Shown here piece by piece: positions 34,299-41,327 of a stretch of DNA of 43,352 bases; positions within the stretch are counted from its first letter, which is position 1, and every line of letters starts with the position of its first letter. The translations under genes and the position numbers were made by a program. Origin of the DNA: Spirochaetota bacterium (GTDB taxonomy: Bacteria; Spirochaetota; Spirochaetia; Treponematales; UBA12059); assembly GCA_029560805.1 (NCBI GenBank), contig JAKQKE010000044.1, positions 1-43,352 of the forward strand. The letters run 5' to 3'. Under the pieces are notes generated by a model. That model saw only the letters and a list, made by a program, of their open reading frames with translations. It was not told the origin of the DNA and ran no database searches.

Positions 34299-34816
34299 GC
34301 GTTCATCGCGGCCCGTATCGCCTTGTCGAGCGCGTCGGCGAAGGCCTTCAGGTCCTTGCGGTCGAATAATCGGCCCTTGGGCAGGGGAGGGGCTACGCCC
34401 AGCTCGCGTAGCGCGGCCATGTGGTCTCGCACGGAGGCCCGCTCCCTGGCCGAGTCCGCAGTCCAGATGACGCCGCGATCGTTCAATGCGACCAACCCGC
34501 GCTCCAGCGCCCGGGCGGCCAGCGGGATATCCCGCGTCACCAGGATGTCTCCCGGCGCGGCCGACGCGATGATGTAGTCGTCGGCGGTATCGCGCTCGAG
34601 GGTATCGCGCTCGGGCTGGGTCGACAAGCCGCCCGCCTGGGCAGCGGCCTTGCCGACGATGACGGCTTGCAGGTTCTTGCCCGGGGGGAGCGGCAATGGA
34701 CGGTTGGCGACGAAGACGGCGCGGATCGGGAAGTCCCCGGTCGAAGACCCGGCCCGCCTGCCGATGAGCTCCTTGACCTCCCGCGGTAGCGAGTCGGCGT
34801 CGGCCCAGAGAGTCAT
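34286..34816 (-). CDS. yaiI: YaiI/YqxD family (DUF188) protein
   Basis: 176 residues, PIN-like nuclease-fold family of unknown function. It starts TLWADADSLPREVKELIGRR and contains VTRDIPLAARALERGLVALN, GVIWTADS and LPKGRLFDRKDLKAFADALD. Slightly longer than the usual 150. A 15-bp tandem duplication (34586-34615) adds ERDTL just before the conserved ADD acidic cluster. Its start overlaps the manA stop by 4 nt (ATGA), so it is co-transcribed with manA, and its 3' end overlaps mtgA. Confidence 0.88.
   Translation of the reverse strand: MTLWADADSLPREVKELIGRRAGSSTGDFPIRAVFVANRPLPLPPGKNLQAVIVGKAAAQAGGLSTQPERDTLERDTADDYIIASAAPGDILVTRDIPLAARALERGLVALNDRGVIWTADSARERASVRDHMAALRELGVAPPLPKGRLFDRKDLKAFADALDKAIRAAMNAQRR
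34586..34615 (-). repeat. 15-bp tandem duplication inside yaiI
   Basis: GGTATCGCGCTCGAG (34586-34600) is followed by GGTATCGCGCTCGGG (34601-34615), one mismatch; encodes a duplicated Glu-Arg-Asp-Thr segment. Confidence 0.8.
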
Positions 34817-36036
34817 ACGGGGACGCCCGCCCTATAGATGGCCCCGGAGCCGCTCACCGCGTAGGCCCGTTCGTCGGCGCAGACGAAGGCGGACGCGCCG
34901 CGCGGTAGCTCGATGGATGCGCCGGACCCGGCCTCGAGGCTGACTTCCCCATCGACGCAAAGCAGTATCTCCGGCGTTTCCGGCCTTCCGCCAAACGTAA
35001 GGGTCCCGCTGACCTCGGCCCGGGACAGGGAGTAGTCCGGTACCCCGCACGGATAGGCGTAGAAGCCGTCGTCGCCGAGCGTCGGCTCCAAAGGCTCGAT
35101 GATGGCGCTGTCGAAGCCGAGAGTCGATATGAACTCGGGAATGTCCACGTGCTTGCTCGTCAGCCCGCCGCGGAGCACGTTGTCGGAGTTGGCCATGATC
35201 TCGGCGGCCGTCCCGCGAAGGTAGGCGTGCGGCTCGCCGGGCGGCAGGTTGATGGCTTCCCCTGGGCTCAGCTCGAACAGGTTGAGCGCGAGCGGCGCCA
35301 GGGCCCCGATGTCGTTGGGGTATTCGTCCATCAGCCTGAGTACCCACGAGAAAAGCCTTGAACGGCCGGAGCCTCTCGGCTCGTCGGCCACGATGCGCTC
35401 GCTCCTCGACCTGGCGTAGCTGAGCCGCCTGGCCTTATGCTCCCCGTCAATCGACATGATCATGTAGATGAAGGACGATAGCTCAAGCTTGCAGGGATCG
35501 ACGGCGAGGCGGCCGATCAGGCGCTCCCAGTCGTCCGGCGCTAACAGCCGCGTAGCATCGACTATGGCTTCGATCGGCCTGAAACCGCAGAGCCCCTCGA
35601 ACGAGGTCAGGGCCACGACGGTCTCCGGCTTATGGTTCGGGTCCTTGTAGTTGCGTTCGGCCGCGTCTATGGGTATGCCCTTCGACTCCTCGCGGGCAAA
35701 GCCATGTTCCGCCTTGCGCTTCGACGGATGAGCCTGTACTGATAGGGGGCGGGCCGCCGACAGCAGCTTGAACAGGAAGGGTAGCTCGCCGCCGAAACGG
35801 CGGGCCACGTCCGCCCCTATCGTCGCGCCAGGCGCGGCGGCTATGAGCGCGTCGAGCGGCTTCCTGGCGCCGGTCGATGGATCGACGGCGACGGACGGGG
35901 CGCGTGGATGGGCTCCCATCCATAGCTCGGCCCATGGCTCGCCGCTCGGGTTCTCCTTGCCCAGCAGCGCCGGCAGGGCATCGTTCGAGCCCCAGGCGTA
36001 GTGTTGTACGGTGTTCTCGAGTACGTAGATGGCCAT
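34813..36036 (-). CDS. manA: Mannose-6-phosphate isomerase, class I
   Basis: 407 residues of the type I PMI family: NTVQHYAWGSNDALPALLG start, the zinc/active-site run SVQAHPSKRKAEHGFAREES, YKDPNHKPETVVALTSFEGL and INLPPGEPHAYLRGTAAEIM. Interconverts mannose-6-P and fructose-6-P, feeding GDP-mannose or mannose catabolism. No Shine-Dalgarno. TACAAT ends 5 nt before the ATG inside a GGGGTA/TACCCC inverted repeat. Downstream of dinG by 24 nt but with its own promoter, and coupled to yaiI. Confidence 0.93.
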   Translation of the reverse strand: MAIYVLENTVQHYAWGSNDALPALLGKENPSGEPWAELWMGAHPRAPSVAVDPSTGARKPLDALIAAAPGATIGADVARRFGGELPFLFKLLSAARPLSVQAHPSKRKAEHGFAREESKGIPIDAAERNYKDPNHKPETVVALTSFEGLCGFRPIEAIVDATRLLAPDDWERLIGRLAVDPCKLELSSFIYMIMSIDGEHKARRLSYARSRSERIVADEPRGSGRSRLFSWVLRLMDEYPNDIGALAPLALNLFELSPGEAINLPPGEPHAYLRGTAAEIMANSDNVLRGGLTSKHVDIPEFISTLGFDSAIIEPLEPTLGDDGFYAYPCGVPDYSLSRAEVSGTLTFGGRPETPEILLCVDGEVSLEAGSGASIELPRGASAFVCADERAYAVSGSGAIYRAGVPV

Positions 36037-36070
36037 GGGGTATTGTACCCCGACTGTCGCTCACGGTCTA
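36037..36070 (-). promoter_or_regulatory. manA promoter with overlapping inverted repeat
   Basis: Minus-strand TAGACC (36065-36070), 17-nt spacer, TACAAT (36042-36047). The -10 is embedded in GGGGTA-CAA-TACCCC (36037-36051), a perfect 6-bp inverted repeat directly before the ATG. A repressor there would block transcription start. Confidence 0.5.
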
Positions 36071-38496
36071 CCGATGAACGAACGGACCTCCCCCGCGACC
36101 TCGGCGAGCGGTCCGAAGCGGGTACGGGTACGGGGTAGCGACGATACGAAGACGCGGCCGTAGCGCTTGGTCAGGAGCCGCACGTCGAGCACGACGACGG
36201 CGCCGCGGTCGTTCGAGTGGCGGATCAGCCGGCCGAAGCCCTGCTTGAAGCGTATGACGGCCTCCGGTAGCGATAGGTCCATGAAGGAGTTGCCGCCCCG
36301 CCGCTCGATATCCTCGGATCGGGCCTTCTGGACCGGGTCGGTCGGCACCCTGAACGGCAGCTTGGTGATGATGACGAGCTCGAGCGTCTCGCCCGGCGCG
36401 TCTATGCCCTCCCAGAACGAGTCGGTCGCGAACAGGACGCTCGAGACGTCGGCGACGAAGGAGCCGAGCAGCCTGGAGCGCTCGTCGTCGCCCTGCCTGA
36501 AGGCGGAGATGCCGAGCGCGTCGAGCCGCGGCTTCACCGCGTCCCAGGCCGCGCGCAGGGCCGTATACGAGGTGAACAGCACGAGGGCGCGGCCGCCCGA
36601 GGCCGCGATCAGCTCGTAGACGGCGTCGTTGACCCAAGCTTGCCAGAGGGGCGACGATGGGTCCGGGGCGTCGCTGGTCGCGGCGAGCAGGGCATTGCGC
36701 TCGAAGGGGAAGGGCGAGGGGTACTCGCGACACTCGACTCTGGCGCCGGAAGCCGATAATCCGACCCGGTTCTTCCAGAATCCGAACGAGCCGCCGATGG
36801 AAAGCGTCGCCGACAGGCAGGCGACGGTGCGGAACTGGTCGAACACCGCCTCGTTCATCATGAAGGAAATGTCGAGCGGGGTGATCATCAGCTGGGCGAA
36901 GCCCTCGCCCTGGCTGGTCTTCCGCCTCTCGAGCCAGAAGATCTCGTTCGGTTCCTCGTCGAAGCTTCGGTAGCGCGCGCAGACGGCCGCCAGCTCCGAC
37001 AGCCTGACCAGGGCCAGCTCGGCTTCGCGTACGGACTGGTCCTCGGACGACTCGTCCGGTACCCCGGCGAGCGCGTCCTTGATCAGCTCGGCCATCGACA
37101 GGAGCGCCCTCTCGAGCTCGCCGAGCGGCTTGAGCAGCTCCTCCTCGAGCTCCTTCGAGCGTACGGTCAGGCGCAGGTTCGGGGCGTCCGATAGCAGGGC
37201 GAGGGCTCGAGCGTCGACGGCCTCGGCCGCGGCGACCAGGGCTTCCGACGCGTCCGGGAAGCGCTTCAACAGCCCGGATGGCAGGCCTTTAAGGTTCTGG
37301 AGCTTGACGACGATGCCGAATTTCCTACCGCGCCGCTCGCGGTACAGCTTGCCGACCTGGCGGAGCGTGGAGAATTTCGTTATTTCGTCGGAGAAGAAGC
37401 TCGTGGCGCTGGCCTCTATCGCATGGGCCTCGTCAAAGATGATGCTTCCGTAGGGCGGTAACACCGCGGTCGACTCGTAGCCCGAGCCGGCGGCGCGGGA
37501 GGCTAGGTCGCTGAATAGGATGTGGTGATTGGCTACGATCAGGTCGGCGTCCGCGGCGTCGCGCTTCATCCTGAGCACGAAGCAGCTCTCCCGGAAGGGG
37601 CAACGCATATTGAGGCACTCGTCGGATTCCGAGCGTATCCTCGACCAGAGCGCGTCCTCGGGCCAGAACGACAGGTCGGAGCGGTCGCCCGTGGCGCTGG
37701 ACTCGGCCCAGGCGGCTATCCGGCGGAGCGGGTGGTCGTCTCCGGCGAACAGGCCCTCCTCGTCTATGGCCTCGGCGAGCCTGGTCCGGCAGAGGTAGTT
37801 GCCGCGACCCTTGACCAGTACGGCCTTGAGCTTCTTCTTGAAGATCGACGATACGATCGGTATGTCCTTGTCGACGAGCTGGCGCTGCAGGTTGATCGTG
37901 GCCGTCGAGACGACCACGCGCTCCTGGTTGCGGGCGGCCCAGGCGAGGGCGGGCAGGAGGTAGGCGAACGACTTGCCGACGCCGGTGCCCGCCTCCGCGG
38001 CCAGTACGTAGCCGCCGTTGAAGGCGTCGGCTATCGCCTTGACCAGCTCGAGCTGGCTGAGCCTGGCCTCGTAGCCGGGTAGCCTCGAGGCCAGCTTGCC
38101 GCCGTCGTCCAGCACGCCGGCTAGCTCGCCCGAGTCTATGGCGACGAGGGCCCGGGCTCGTACCGGCTCGGCGACCACGTAGACTTCCCGTACGTCGCCG
38201 TCGACGATGTAGCAGCCGACGCCGTTCTCCCCGGCCCGCGAGGCTACGGCCAGGTCGGCGTCGCTCGGCTCGAGGAACCCGGACGGGTGGTTGTGTATCA
38301 GCACGTCGCCGCGGTCGAGGAAACCGGCCAGGGCCGGCACCGACGACTGTCCGCCGCGAGCTCCGACGATGATCTCGGCCACGAGGCCGCGCCCGTCCAA
38401 CTTGCCAGCCGCGAAGACCTCGTTGAAGCCGGCGTCGGCTATGGCGTCGCGCAGCTCGGCCGCCGCTTCCTCGGTGAAGCGCTCGATCGCTAGCAT
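36061..38496 (-). CDS. dinG: JAMM/RadC-like domain fused to DinG-family helicase
   Basis: 811 residues. Residues 1-115 are not the usual DinG N-terminus: they carry a complete JAMM metalloprotease/RadC-type signature with Glu26, His68-Asn-His70-Pro-Ser-Gly, Ser78 and Asp81. The rest is an XPD/DinG superfamily 2 helicase: Walker A AGTGVGKSFAYLLP with Lys175, a four-Cys Fe-S domain (Cys before RTRLAEAIDEE, then CLNMRCPFRESC), DEAHAIEAS, and helicase-C motifs LFATDSFWEGIDAPGE and GFGRLIRHSNDRG. DinG unwinds 5'-3' DNA forks and R-loops. GAGGA is 9 nt before ATG 38496; 11 nt after the upstream gene. Confidence 0.9.
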   Translation of the reverse strand: MLAIERFTEEAAAELRDAIADAGFNEVFAAGKLDGRGLVAEIIVGARGGQSSVPALAGFLDRGDVLIHNHPSGFLEPSDADLAVASRAGENGVGCYIVDGDVREVYVVAEPVRARALVAIDSGELAGVLDDGGKLASRLPGYEARLSQLELVKAIADAFNGGYVLAAEAGTGVGKSFAYLLPALAWAARNQERVVVSTATINLQRQLVDKDIPIVSSIFKKKLKAVLVKGRGNYLCRTRLAEAIDEEGLFAGDDHPLRRIAAWAESSATGDRSDLSFWPEDALWSRIRSESDECLNMRCPFRESCFVLRMKRDAADADLIVANHHILFSDLASRAAGSGYESTAVLPPYGSIIFDEAHAIEASATSFFSDEITKFSTLRQVGKLYRERRGRKFGIVVKLQNLKGLPSGLLKRFPDASEALVAAAEAVDARALALLSDAPNLRLTVRSKELEEELLKPLGELERALLSMAELIKDALAGVPDESSEDQSVREAELALVRLSELAAVCARYRSFDEEPNEIFWLERRKTSQGEGFAQLMITPLDISFMMNEAVFDQFRTVACLSATLSIGGSFGFWKNRVGLSASGARVECREYPSPFPFERNALLAATSDAPDPSSPLWQAWVNDAVYELIAASGGRALVLFTSYTALRAAWDAVKPRLDALGISAFRQGDDERSRLLGSFVADVSSVLFATDSFWEGIDAPGETLELVIITKLPFRVPTDPVQKARSEDIERRGGNSFMDLSLPEAVIRFKQGFGRLIRHSNDRGAVVVLDVRLLTKRYGRVFVSSLPRTRTRFGPLAEVAGEVRSFIGRP

Positions 38497-38507: not shown

Positions 38508-41327
38508 TCAGTACGAGGCGACGAGACTCAAGGTCAGGCCGTGGGGGGACACACCGTCGCCGTCGTCCGCTAGGTCCGGCCTGCACCAGAATTCGAGGCT
38601 CGATACCGGGTGCAGGGCGGCGTAGGCGCCGATAGCCGGAGTCCAGGTCAGGCTCGCCCTGGCGAAGGCGGACCAGCCCCAGTCCCGCGCCGTTCCATCC
38701 TGGCCGGCGATCGCGTAGGCACGGCCGCCGGACCGAAGCGAGAGGCGGTTCGCGTAGAAGGAACCTGCCCCGCGCTGGATCTCCGCCTTGAGCAACCTGA
38801 GGCTGGCCTCGAGCGAGGCGTACCAGGCGCCGTAGCCGCTCCCCGAGAAGTCGTCCGGTGACGGGTACGAGGCGCCGAGGGTCCAGCCGCCCGCATAGGC
38901 CCGGCCGTCGGGGCCGTAGGCTATACCGTCGGTGACGGCGAGCGCCCCGTGGGCCGAGACGGCCAGGGCTCCGGCGCCGACAAAGGCTTCCGCGGTCGCT
39001 TCGAGCCCGGCGGTCGGTAGGGCGGCCGTGGGGTAGAGGGCCGCGTCGAGCCGTGTGAAGAGCGATATGACATAGCCCGAGCGGGCTTCGGGGTCGCCGA
39101 GCGGCGCGCTGACGTCGGACCAGGCTATCGTCGACTCGAGGGCGGCGGAGGCGACGCTCCAGACGGCGTACGGAGAGGCTCCCGGGGCGCTCTTGGCATT
39201 GGCGCCGAATCCGCCGGAAACGTTCCAGCTCAGCGCTCCGCCCGAGAAGGGATAGAGCGAGCCGGCGGTACCGGCGAAGGCTTCCGACGAGCGCGCGACG
39301 ATGGAATCGGCGTCCGTCGGGACCGTTCCGGTAAACGAGTCCCGCGCGAGCAGCCTGATGGGCCAGGCGAAGCGCGAGAAGGTGACGTCGAGCTCCAGGT
39401 CGACGGCGCGCGCCGTCGTGTCCCAGGCGGCCGAGACCGACGCCTCGAGCCGCTCGGCCGGATCGCCTAGCACCGCGGCGAGACCCGCCGACTCGAGGCC
39501 GCCAGTGGCGAGGATGGCCGTGGGGAACCAGAAACGGGGCGCCAGGTAGCGTGTCGCCCGGTATCGCTCCGGCGACACCGGCGGCGCCGGGGCGGCGTCG
39601 TAGGCCGAGCCGAGCTCGAACAGTCCGCTCGCCTCTACCCAGAGCGCCGGAGCCTCGGCGAAGCCGAGAGGCGTGCGGTCTGTCGGGTAATCGCAGAGGC
39701 GCTGGCCGTCGGAGAAACGGCCGATATAGCGCACCAGGCCGGCGGACAGTACCGGACTGTGGACGCCGCCCGAGATCGGGACGCTTTGGTACCGTATCAG
39801 CCCGTCGTCGAGCTCGACGAGGCGATAGAACGAACCGTCATCCCAGCCGGAACGTAGGACGCCGTCCGTGCCCATCGATAGATAGCGCAGCCAGGAAAGG
39901 CCGTCGGGGACGACGAGACGCTCTACCGAGTCCGCGCGGGTCCCGGTCCCGTCCAACGCTAGCCTGATGATCGAGGGGACGCCGTCGAGCCTGGCGATCG
40001 CGTAGACGTAGGCTCCGTCGGCGGAGGCCACGGGCGACGAGAAATTCGTACGCTCGTTGCCCTCGAGCAGCGTAGAGCGGGCCTCGCCGCGCGCGACGAC
40101 CAGGTCGGTCTCGTAGCCGTCGACGGACACCCCGACCAGCCCGCCGCCGGGTAGGTAGGCCGCGTCCCTGACGCGGCTCAGGGGCAGGAGCCGAGGGCCG
40201 CCTCGGCCGCCGACCGTGTACTCCATGACAGCGAGCTTGGGGAAACCGCCTGCGAGGCGGGTCGTGGAGACGAGGAGGGCCGAGCCGTCCGGCGAGGCAT
40301 CGAGCCGCGACACCTCGGCGCCGGCCCTGAACAGCGGGCGGCTATCGCCGGAGACCGGGTCGAGCCGGTAGACGGTCTCGGCCGCCTCGTCGGCATAGTA
40401 GAGCGCGTCGCCCGACGAGCAGAGCGCCGAGACGGACGACGCGTCCGTCCGAGGCTCGGCGGCCATGTAGACGGGCGCCGTCGGCGCCATGGAGCGCATG
40501 AAGTCGGTCCAGGCCTCCGATAGCGATATGCCGTAGACCCGCGAGAAGCGCCCCTCGCCAAGCCAACTGTCGTCGAGCGGTCGCAGGAGCGCCCTAGCGC
40601 CGAAGAGCGTCCAGAGCTCGGCGTACTTCCCAATGCCCCAGCGCCCCTGCAGGTAGCGCGAGAAGTAGCCGCCATAGAGGTAGTGGAGCGCGCTCGATGG
40701 GTAGCGGTCGTCGGCTCCGCAGGCCTGGGCGAAGCTCCTGCCCCGGCCTTCGACGATGTCCTGGCGTATGATGGCGCCGGCGAGCGGGTCGGTCGCACGG
40801 CCGAAGCCGTTCATGCTCTCGAACGACACGGTGACGCCCTCGACGAAAGCCCTGGGCGCTAGATACGTCGACAGGCCGAGCGGCGAGCCGAAGACGGCGA
40901 CGAGCGCGCCCTCCGCGCCCCCCCGGAGGCTTAGCGACACCGCGTGCGTGAGCTCGTGCTGGAACAGCTTTCTCAGATCGTCGTCGAACGATCCGAGGCT
41001 CGAGCCTGCCTCGGTGGGGGCCTGGTACAGCACGATGCGCGGATAGGGATAGGCGGTGTAGTAGCCGTTCAGCGTCTCGGAATCGGGCGTCATGACGACC
41101 GGCAGCCTCGCGCGGGGGCTCGTGCCGAGCAGCGCGGCTATCTCGCGGTACGCGTCGTCGGCGAAGGAAGCAAGGTACCGTACCGCCGGCTCCGACTCGG
41201 CCGCGTAGATGAACGTGAAGTACTCGGTCTCGACTGTGGACAAAGGCCTGTCGGGCGAGAACAGGTCGGCGGACGCCGCGGAGACGAAGACCGCGGTCGC
41301 GAACACTAAGGCGAGCGTCCGATGCAT
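38508..41327 (-). CDS. Exported HELTH metallopeptidase with propeller and barrel-like C-terminus
   Basis: 939 residues. Signal peptide 1-20. Residues about 30-290 form a gluzincin-type domain (peptidase MA-like): FQHELTHAVSL with His124, Glu125 and His128, and a third ligand Glu163 in FVEGVTVSFES. Residues about 300-570 look like a TolB-type beta-propeller (ALYYADEAAETVYRLDPVSG, RLDASPDGSALLVST). The last third is rich in amphipathic beta strands and ends LTLSLVASY, like an outer-membrane barrel. Family not recognised as a named gene; probably cell-surface proteolysis or envelope assembly. It has a promoter at 41365-41394 and GGGGG before ATG 41327. dinG follows 11 nt later. Confidence 0.78.
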   Translation of the reverse strand: MHRTLALVFATAVFVSAASADLFSPDRPLSTVETEYFTFIYAAESEPAVRYLASFADDAYREIAALLGTSPRARLPVVMTPDSETLNGYYTAYPYPRIVLYQAPTEAGSSLGSFDDDLRKLFQHELTHAVSLSLRGGAEGALVAVFGSPLGLSTYLAPRAFVEGVTVSFESMNGFGRATDPLAGAIIRQDIVEGRGRSFAQACGADDRYPSSALHYLYGGYFSRYLQGRWGIGKYAELWTLFGARALLRPLDDSWLGEGRFSRVYGISLSEAWTDFMRSMAPTAPVYMAAEPRTDASSVSALCSSGDALYYADEAAETVYRLDPVSGDSRPLFRAGAEVSRLDASPDGSALLVSTTRLAGGFPKLAVMEYTVGGRGGPRLLPLSRVRDAAYLPGGGLVGVSVDGYETDLVVARGEARSTLLEGNERTNFSSPVASADGAYVYAIARLDGVPSIIRLALDGTGTRADSVERLVVPDGLSWLRYLSMGTDGVLRSGWDDGSFYRLVELDDGLIRYQSVPISGGVHSPVLSAGLVRYIGRFSDGQRLCDYPTDRTPLGFAEAPALWVEASGLFELGSAYDAAPAPPVSPERYRATRYLAPRFWFPTAILATGGLESAGLAAVLGDPAERLEASVSAAWDTTARAVDLELDVTFSRFAWPIRLLARDSFTGTVPTDADSIVARSSEAFAGTAGSLYPFSGGALSWNVSGGFGANAKSAPGASPYAVWSVASAALESTIAWSDVSAPLGDPEARSGYVISLFTRLDAALYPTAALPTAGLEATAEAFVGAGALAVSAHGALAVTDGIAYGPDGRAYAGGWTLGASYPSPDDFSGSGYGAWYASLEASLRLLKAEIQRGAGSFYANRLSLRSGGRAYAIAGQDGTARDWGWSAFARASLTWTPAIGAYAALHPVSSLEFWCRPDLADDGDGVSPHGLTLSLVASY

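Follow-up and report, generated by a model that had tools for sequence, protein, structure and literature searches.

DinG-like proteins have been divided into ten subgroups, one of which, 'RadC-like DinG', combines a YoaA-like helicase core with an N-terminal domain carrying a glutamate, two histidines and an aspartate, and is found in hosts without HolC (Cheng 2025; PMC11981726). DALI comparisons of this subgroup recovered PfJAMM1 and CsRpn11, with no similarity to nucleases, and the same study states that the subgroup has not been researched (PMC11981726). The literature likewise yielded no report of biochemistry, zinc content or phenotype for any RadC-like DinG member. We know of no established substrate for RadC or for any RadC-type JAMM domain. 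Related helicases have been studied in the context of DNA-protein crosslinks. Mutants of Escherichia coli dinG show hypersensitivity to covalent crosslinks induced by aza-C but none to tight complexes that the same enzyme forms non-covalently, and a special role for DinG in crosslink repair was suggested by the authors (PMC4437897). FANCJ, which belongs to the XPD family of helicases, loads on single-stranded DNA, hits the crosslinked protein and unfolds this substrate for cleavage by SPRTN (PMC12279946).

The window, that is the whole 43,352-nucleotide stretch of DNA analysed here, is one contig of a 3.33-Mb genome that is 97% complete, and it encodes a new member of RadC-like DinG. The JAMM-DinG architecture was already known (Cheng 2025); the original prediction, which held that DinG normally carries either nothing or a DnaQ exonuclease at its N-terminus, overlooked this listed subgroup (PMC11981726). 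The same prediction placed the gene at the correct coordinates, though it sits on the minus strand, with its ATG at 38496, a stop codon ending at 36061, and 811 codons with no internal stops. The fusion gene, its parts and its immediate neighbours are as follows:

36061..38496, minus strand: JAMM-DinG fusion gene (RadC-like DinG), 811 aa, complete
38161..38496, minus strand: RadC-like JAMM domain, residues 1-112, with E26, H68-N-H70-P, S78 and D81
38095..38160, minus strand: JAMM-helicase linker, residues 113-134, with a predicted short helix at 122-128
36064..38094, minus strand: DinG/YoaA-type helicase, residues 135-811, with Walker A, Fe-S cysteines, DEAH box and motif VI
38508..41327, minus strand: upstream co-directional gene, 939 aa, ending 11 bp before the fusion start
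34813..36036, minus strand: downstream co-directional manA (mannose-6-phosphate isomerase), 24 bp after the fusion gene

The window protein resembles the RadC-like DinG type (Desulfuromonas soudanensis) in its N-terminal domain residues, its YoaA-like helicase and the absence of HolC from its genome, and differs in sequence divergence only (~38-42% identity to members found in Desulfuromonadales and Dadabacteria). New here are the invariance of the metal-site residues, the repeated loss of the whole domain, its universal acidity and the occurrence of this domain subtype in DinG alone. Confidence in the architecture is high, and in its function moderate at best.

The JAMM/MPN+ motif E...HxHP-x6-SxxD is present in the window protein, and the residues originally assigned to it (E26, H68, N69, H70, P71, S78 and D81) are all found as given. 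Taken singly, the protein matches the Pfam RadC family weakly (PF04002; 20.7 bits, below the cut-off of 22.1, covering residues 65-88 only), and it scores 22.8 bits in the whole-genome search. PF04002 is matched by 18/18 aligned diverse relatives from the same phylum (best 9.5e-9), and a profile built from these 18 relatives matches 2qlc, a crystal structure of RadC, along most of the domain's length (4.6e-8). The expectation that profile searches would return a RadC/JAB match is thus borne out. The protein is not RadC proper (UPF0758), as it opens with the JAMM domain and lacks the RadC N-terminal region.

A search with the full-length fold returned helicase matches only, and the JAMM domain was therefore modelled separately. 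AlphaFold2 models, built with 44 sequences, have a pLDDT of 88.6 for the whole protein and 93.4 for the JAMM domain alone. The best 50 PDB rows for the domain model are all JAMM/MPN-fold proteins, with Z scores of 11.2 for BubCD, 10.6 for CsRpn11, 10.3 for PfJAMM1, 8.8 for AfJAMM and 8.5 for RadC, and the best Foldseek rows agree with this comparison. The predicted fold is hence that of a JAMM domain, as anticipated. In the model, there are five main strands and helices at residues 9-21 and 79-89; E26 directly precedes the first core strand, H68 and H70 end the third strand, and S78 and D81 lie at the start of the helix that follows it. This predicted order of strands and residues corresponds to the layout reported for RadC-like DinG (PMC11981726). 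AfJAMM, PfJAMM1, CsRpn11 and other JAMM/MPN+ proteins share the fold and the E, HxHP, S, D pattern (Z 8.3-10.6), but these proteins have ubiquitin-like conjugates as substrates or are free-standing, whereas the window domain is tethered to a helicase. RadC shares HNHP-x6-SxxD (2qlc; rmsd 3.0 over 99 residues), and the window domain differs from it in being fused to a helicase as well as in its missing N-terminal region. The structural matches also bear on the idea that the domain is a metal-dependent nuclease, like those of ExoDinG and EndoDinG. Other DinG subgroups do have nuclease domains at the same position (PMC11981726), but with matches confined to the JAMM/MPN fold among the best 50 rows, and no nuclease similarity in the published DALI analysis (PMC11981726), this is highly improbable and the least probable role considered.

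Conservation of the domain was assessed within and beyond the phylum. DinG-like matches occur in 260/296 genomes of the phylum, and E26, G48, H68, N69, H70, P71, S78 and D81 are invariant in 50/50 aligned domain-bearing proteins, which were picked without reference to the motif. The same metal-site residues are invariant in 71/71 full-length-aligned relatives from named genomes. These came from a scan based on five domains, in which 80 loci were kept of 442 matches; because its two patterns, one demanding HNHP, favoured this stretch, it is E, S and D that provide independent evidence in the 71. Such invariance across the family excludes a chance origin of the motif. The kept loci belong to Spirochaetota, Thermodesulfobacteriota including Desulfuromonadales, Dadabacteria, KSB1 and Calditrichota, together with single MAGs with other taxon labels, which may be misbinned; MAG labels may more generally be wrong. 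The fusion is old and widespread, spanning Spirochaetota, Desulfuromonadales and other deltaproteobacterial groups, Dadabacteria and KSB1/Calditrichota. In all 80 kept loci the JAMM domain is fused to DinG-type helicase sequence, the helicase being cut short by the contig or reading frame in a few, and among these loci this JAMM subtype occurs fused to DinG only. Mean pairwise identity is 43% for the JAMM domain, not far below the 49-53% of the motor domains and well above the 20% of the Arch region. Distances between JAMM domains correlate with those between helicases (Mantel rho 0.69; 0/999 permutations), and the two parts have therefore evolved together.

The net charge of the domain is negative in 76/76 members tested, with a mean of -7.4 and a range of -13 to -2. 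The original prediction proposed two roles for the domain, the processing of DNA-bound proteins and fork binding. A DNA-binding or fork-recognition module would accord with the old DNA-repair label of RadC and with the nucleic-acid-processing N-terminal domains of some DinG relatives, but given the uniform acidity of the domain and the fact that its invariant residues are those of the catalytic metal site, such a role is very unlikely. Processing of DNA-bound proteins appears to be the better of the two proposals.

The helicase half contains a Walker A motif (GTGVGKS, residues 170-176), four Fe-S cysteines (C236/C294/C299/C305, with C294 replaced by Ser in 2/71 relatives), a DEAH box (355-358) and motif VI (QGFGRLIR, 752-759). 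It matches Pfam Helicase_C_2 (3.7e-45), and its best NCBIfam match is YoaA (NF053712; residues 128-791), though at 544.7 bits it falls below the curated cut-off of 680 for a YoaA equivalog. Structurally, it resembles E. coli DinG (6fws; Z 38.1) and Staphylococcus aureus ExoDinG (8zef; Z 36.1). The whole helicase core, with Fe-S and Arch domains, is shared with E. coli YoaA/DinG and S. aureus ExoDinG; the E. coli proteins are without an extra N-terminal domain and ExoDinG has a DnaQ-type exonuclease, whereas the window protein has a JAMM domain. Both halves of the fusion, the RadC-like JAMM domain and the XPD/DinG-type helicase, are thus confirmed by profile and structure searches, and the core of the original prediction, a true JAMM/RadC-fold domain on a complete DinG/YoaA-type helicase, stands. 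Sequence, fold and conservation together establish the protein as an Fe-S XPD-family helicase from the DinG/YoaA branch, whose N-terminal JAMM domain of the (iso)peptidase type is intact. HolC (PF04364) has no match in the window genome, though the same profile detects the E. coli control. The YoaA-like score of the helicase and the absence of HolC would suit a domain that serves in protein docking without catalysis, standing in for the HolC contact of YoaA and bringing the helicase to the replisome. Eukaryotes commonly have MPN domains that are non-catalytic.

The history of the domain was traced on a helicase tree of 95 rows, comprising proteins with (J+) and without (J-) the JAMM domain. 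Domain presence changes state 12 times, at least nine of the changes being forced by well-supported branches, though the position of the root and of some deep branches is uncertain and the tree contains long branches. J- proteins are interspersed with J+ sisters, L055 and L029 being one such pair. Treponema species nest among sequences of the same order as the window, whose host is therefore probably a spirochaete of the Treponema order. These changes are best read as an ancestral fusion that has repeatedly lost the whole domain; since the domain subtype is seen in DinG alone, a series of losses is more parsimonious than a series of gains. One J- protein (L064) keeps only the C-terminal part of the JAMM domain, which is a trace of such a loss. 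The domain is not required for the helicase, since many Treponema relatives live without it. No JAMM-DinG copies with a broken metal site were seen in this sample, which was selected rather than exhaustive. A domain kept for docking or folding alone should yield broken metal sites, and that none was seen is the main argument for catalysis. The docking role also fails to explain why E26, S78 and D81 never vary among the members examined and, with catalytically dead domains absent despite many losses, we consider it decidedly unlikely. Docking and DNA-binding roles both fit the conservation less well, and taken together, invariance, whole-domain loss, acidity and DinG-only fusion point to an active metallo(iso)peptidase rather than to a module that binds DNA or forks.

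Separate RadC proteins are present in most J+ genomes tested. RadC was accordingly rejected as a simple substitute for the fused domain, and it was also rejected as an obligate partner, since the J+ genomes G271, G094, G079, G037, G099, G073 and G010 show no separate RadC, although some of these may be incomplete. In J- genomes, no split or relocated DinG-type JAMM domain was seen, RadC-type hits alone being found (18/19). The assembly of the window genome yielded no full-length RadC, and the sole other RadC-family match in it is a 151-residue JAB-domain ORF (L031; G000:C118:23224-23580) whose surroundings appear to resemble a mobile element. RadC-type JAMM domains also occur inside open frames of ~1500-3200 codons in same-order relatives (G206:C30, G157:C2, G157:C1, G273:C3, G274:C37 and G260:C4), and these frames may correspond to mobile-element polyvalent proteins, which they resemble.

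The strict conservation of the fused domain suggests that it cuts something attached to DNA, possibly stuck proteins. The preferred reading, for which we estimate a probability of roughly 40%, is that JAMM-DinG acts on crosslinked or conjugated proteins on DNA. It is guided by the dinG crosslink phenotype (PMC4437897) and the FANCJ/SPRTN precedent (PMC12279946), whose logic a DinG helicase with its own JAMM domain would follow in a single chain. The helicase would load on the single-stranded DNA of a stalled fork or gap and move in the 5'->3' direction, a polarity that we infer, until it encounters a protein that is conjugated or covalently trapped, the DNA-protein crosslink being the presumed substrate. 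It would then strain or unfold the trapped protein, and the attached JAMM domain, which is expected to bind zinc and act as a hydrolase, would hydrolyse a peptide or isopeptide bond, after which the block would be bypassed or repaired. JAMM-DinG could in this respect be a one-chain bacterial analogue of FANCJ and SPRTN. The likeness lies in the working only, an XPD-family helicase and a zinc metalloprotease operating at DNA-bound proteins; FANCJ and SPRTN are two proteins, SPRTN is of the SprT type and unrelated to JAMM, and membership is not claimed. In its strongest form, JAMM-DinG would be a dedicated bacterial crosslink-repair enzyme, in which the helicase unfolds DNA-trapped proteins and the JAMM domain cuts them within one chain. 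We consider this strongest form doubtful.

Several considerations weigh against the crosslink reading, among them the lack of the domain in many Treponema relatives and, as described below, the lineage-dependent neighbours and the absence of LexA-box matches. RadC itself has no activity known to us. In addition, characterised JAMM enzymes such as PfJAMM1 and CsRpn11 (as cited in PMC11981726) mostly cut at ubiquitin-like conjugates or small adducts, rather than degrading proteins broadly. Ubiquitin-like conjugates are the substrates of known JAMM enzymes, which makes a specific deconjugase the main rival. It would strip one modifier, be it a ubiquitin-like protein of the MoaD/ThiS type or an adduct made of a small peptide or an amino acid, from a fork or repair protein, without general digestion and with the helicase merely delivering it to DNA. 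The closest folds are indeed deconjugases or Ubl-linked JAMMs (BubCD, CsRpn11 and PfJAMM1), and the window genome has two strong ThiF/E1-like hits, as do most bacteria. However, this genome contains no Prok-JAB family member, no candidate modifier was found, and no E1, E2 or ubiquitin-like gene lies beside the fusion in the identified neighbourhoods, in which most neighbours are unannotated; such a deconjugase is possible, though rather unlikely. The fusion links an active site of the RadC type to a helicase with an E. coli relative that guards against covalent DNA-protein crosslinks. If the strongest form of the crosslink reading is true, JAMM-DinG would, as far as we know, be the first JAMM enzyme to act on DNA-protein crosslinks, and a route would open to the function of RadC itself. 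JAMM function and bacterial crosslink proteolysis become directly testable, as sister genomes of the Treponema order with and without the domain offer a clean genetic comparison and the active-site residues are intact in every copy examined.

In the window, the 939-aa gene, the fusion, manA and a YaiI-type gene form a tight co-directional run. The 939-aa upstream protein has a signal-like N-terminus and a HELTH zinc-peptidase-like motif, and no Pfam match at E 1. Neighbourhoods were derived with a simple ORF caller and neighbour names were read from the sequences, except for the Pfam matches in the window. The neighbours of the fusion gene differ between lineages, and across the family none in the neighbourhoods examined points to crosslink repair. 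Five consensus LexA-box patterns gave 0 matches upstream of 60 relatives, though spirochaete boxes are poorly known. A putative purine nucleoside phosphorylase gene lies immediately upstream in several spirochaetes, and probable UppP and FtsK-type translocase genes are upstream in some phylum members. In KSB1/Calditrichota, an apparent SNM1-like metallo-beta-lactamase nuclease is encoded just upstream (L110, L120 and L150) and is a possible candidate for a repair-nuclease partner. RadC is encoded 2-4 genes downstream in eleven loci, mostly from Desulfuromonadales (L076, L081, L100, L108, L125, L127, L130, L137, L138, L142 and L151); the intervening genes differ (SGNH hydrolase-like, cytochrome-like and others), and the arrangement is suggestive, though it may reflect inherited synteny.
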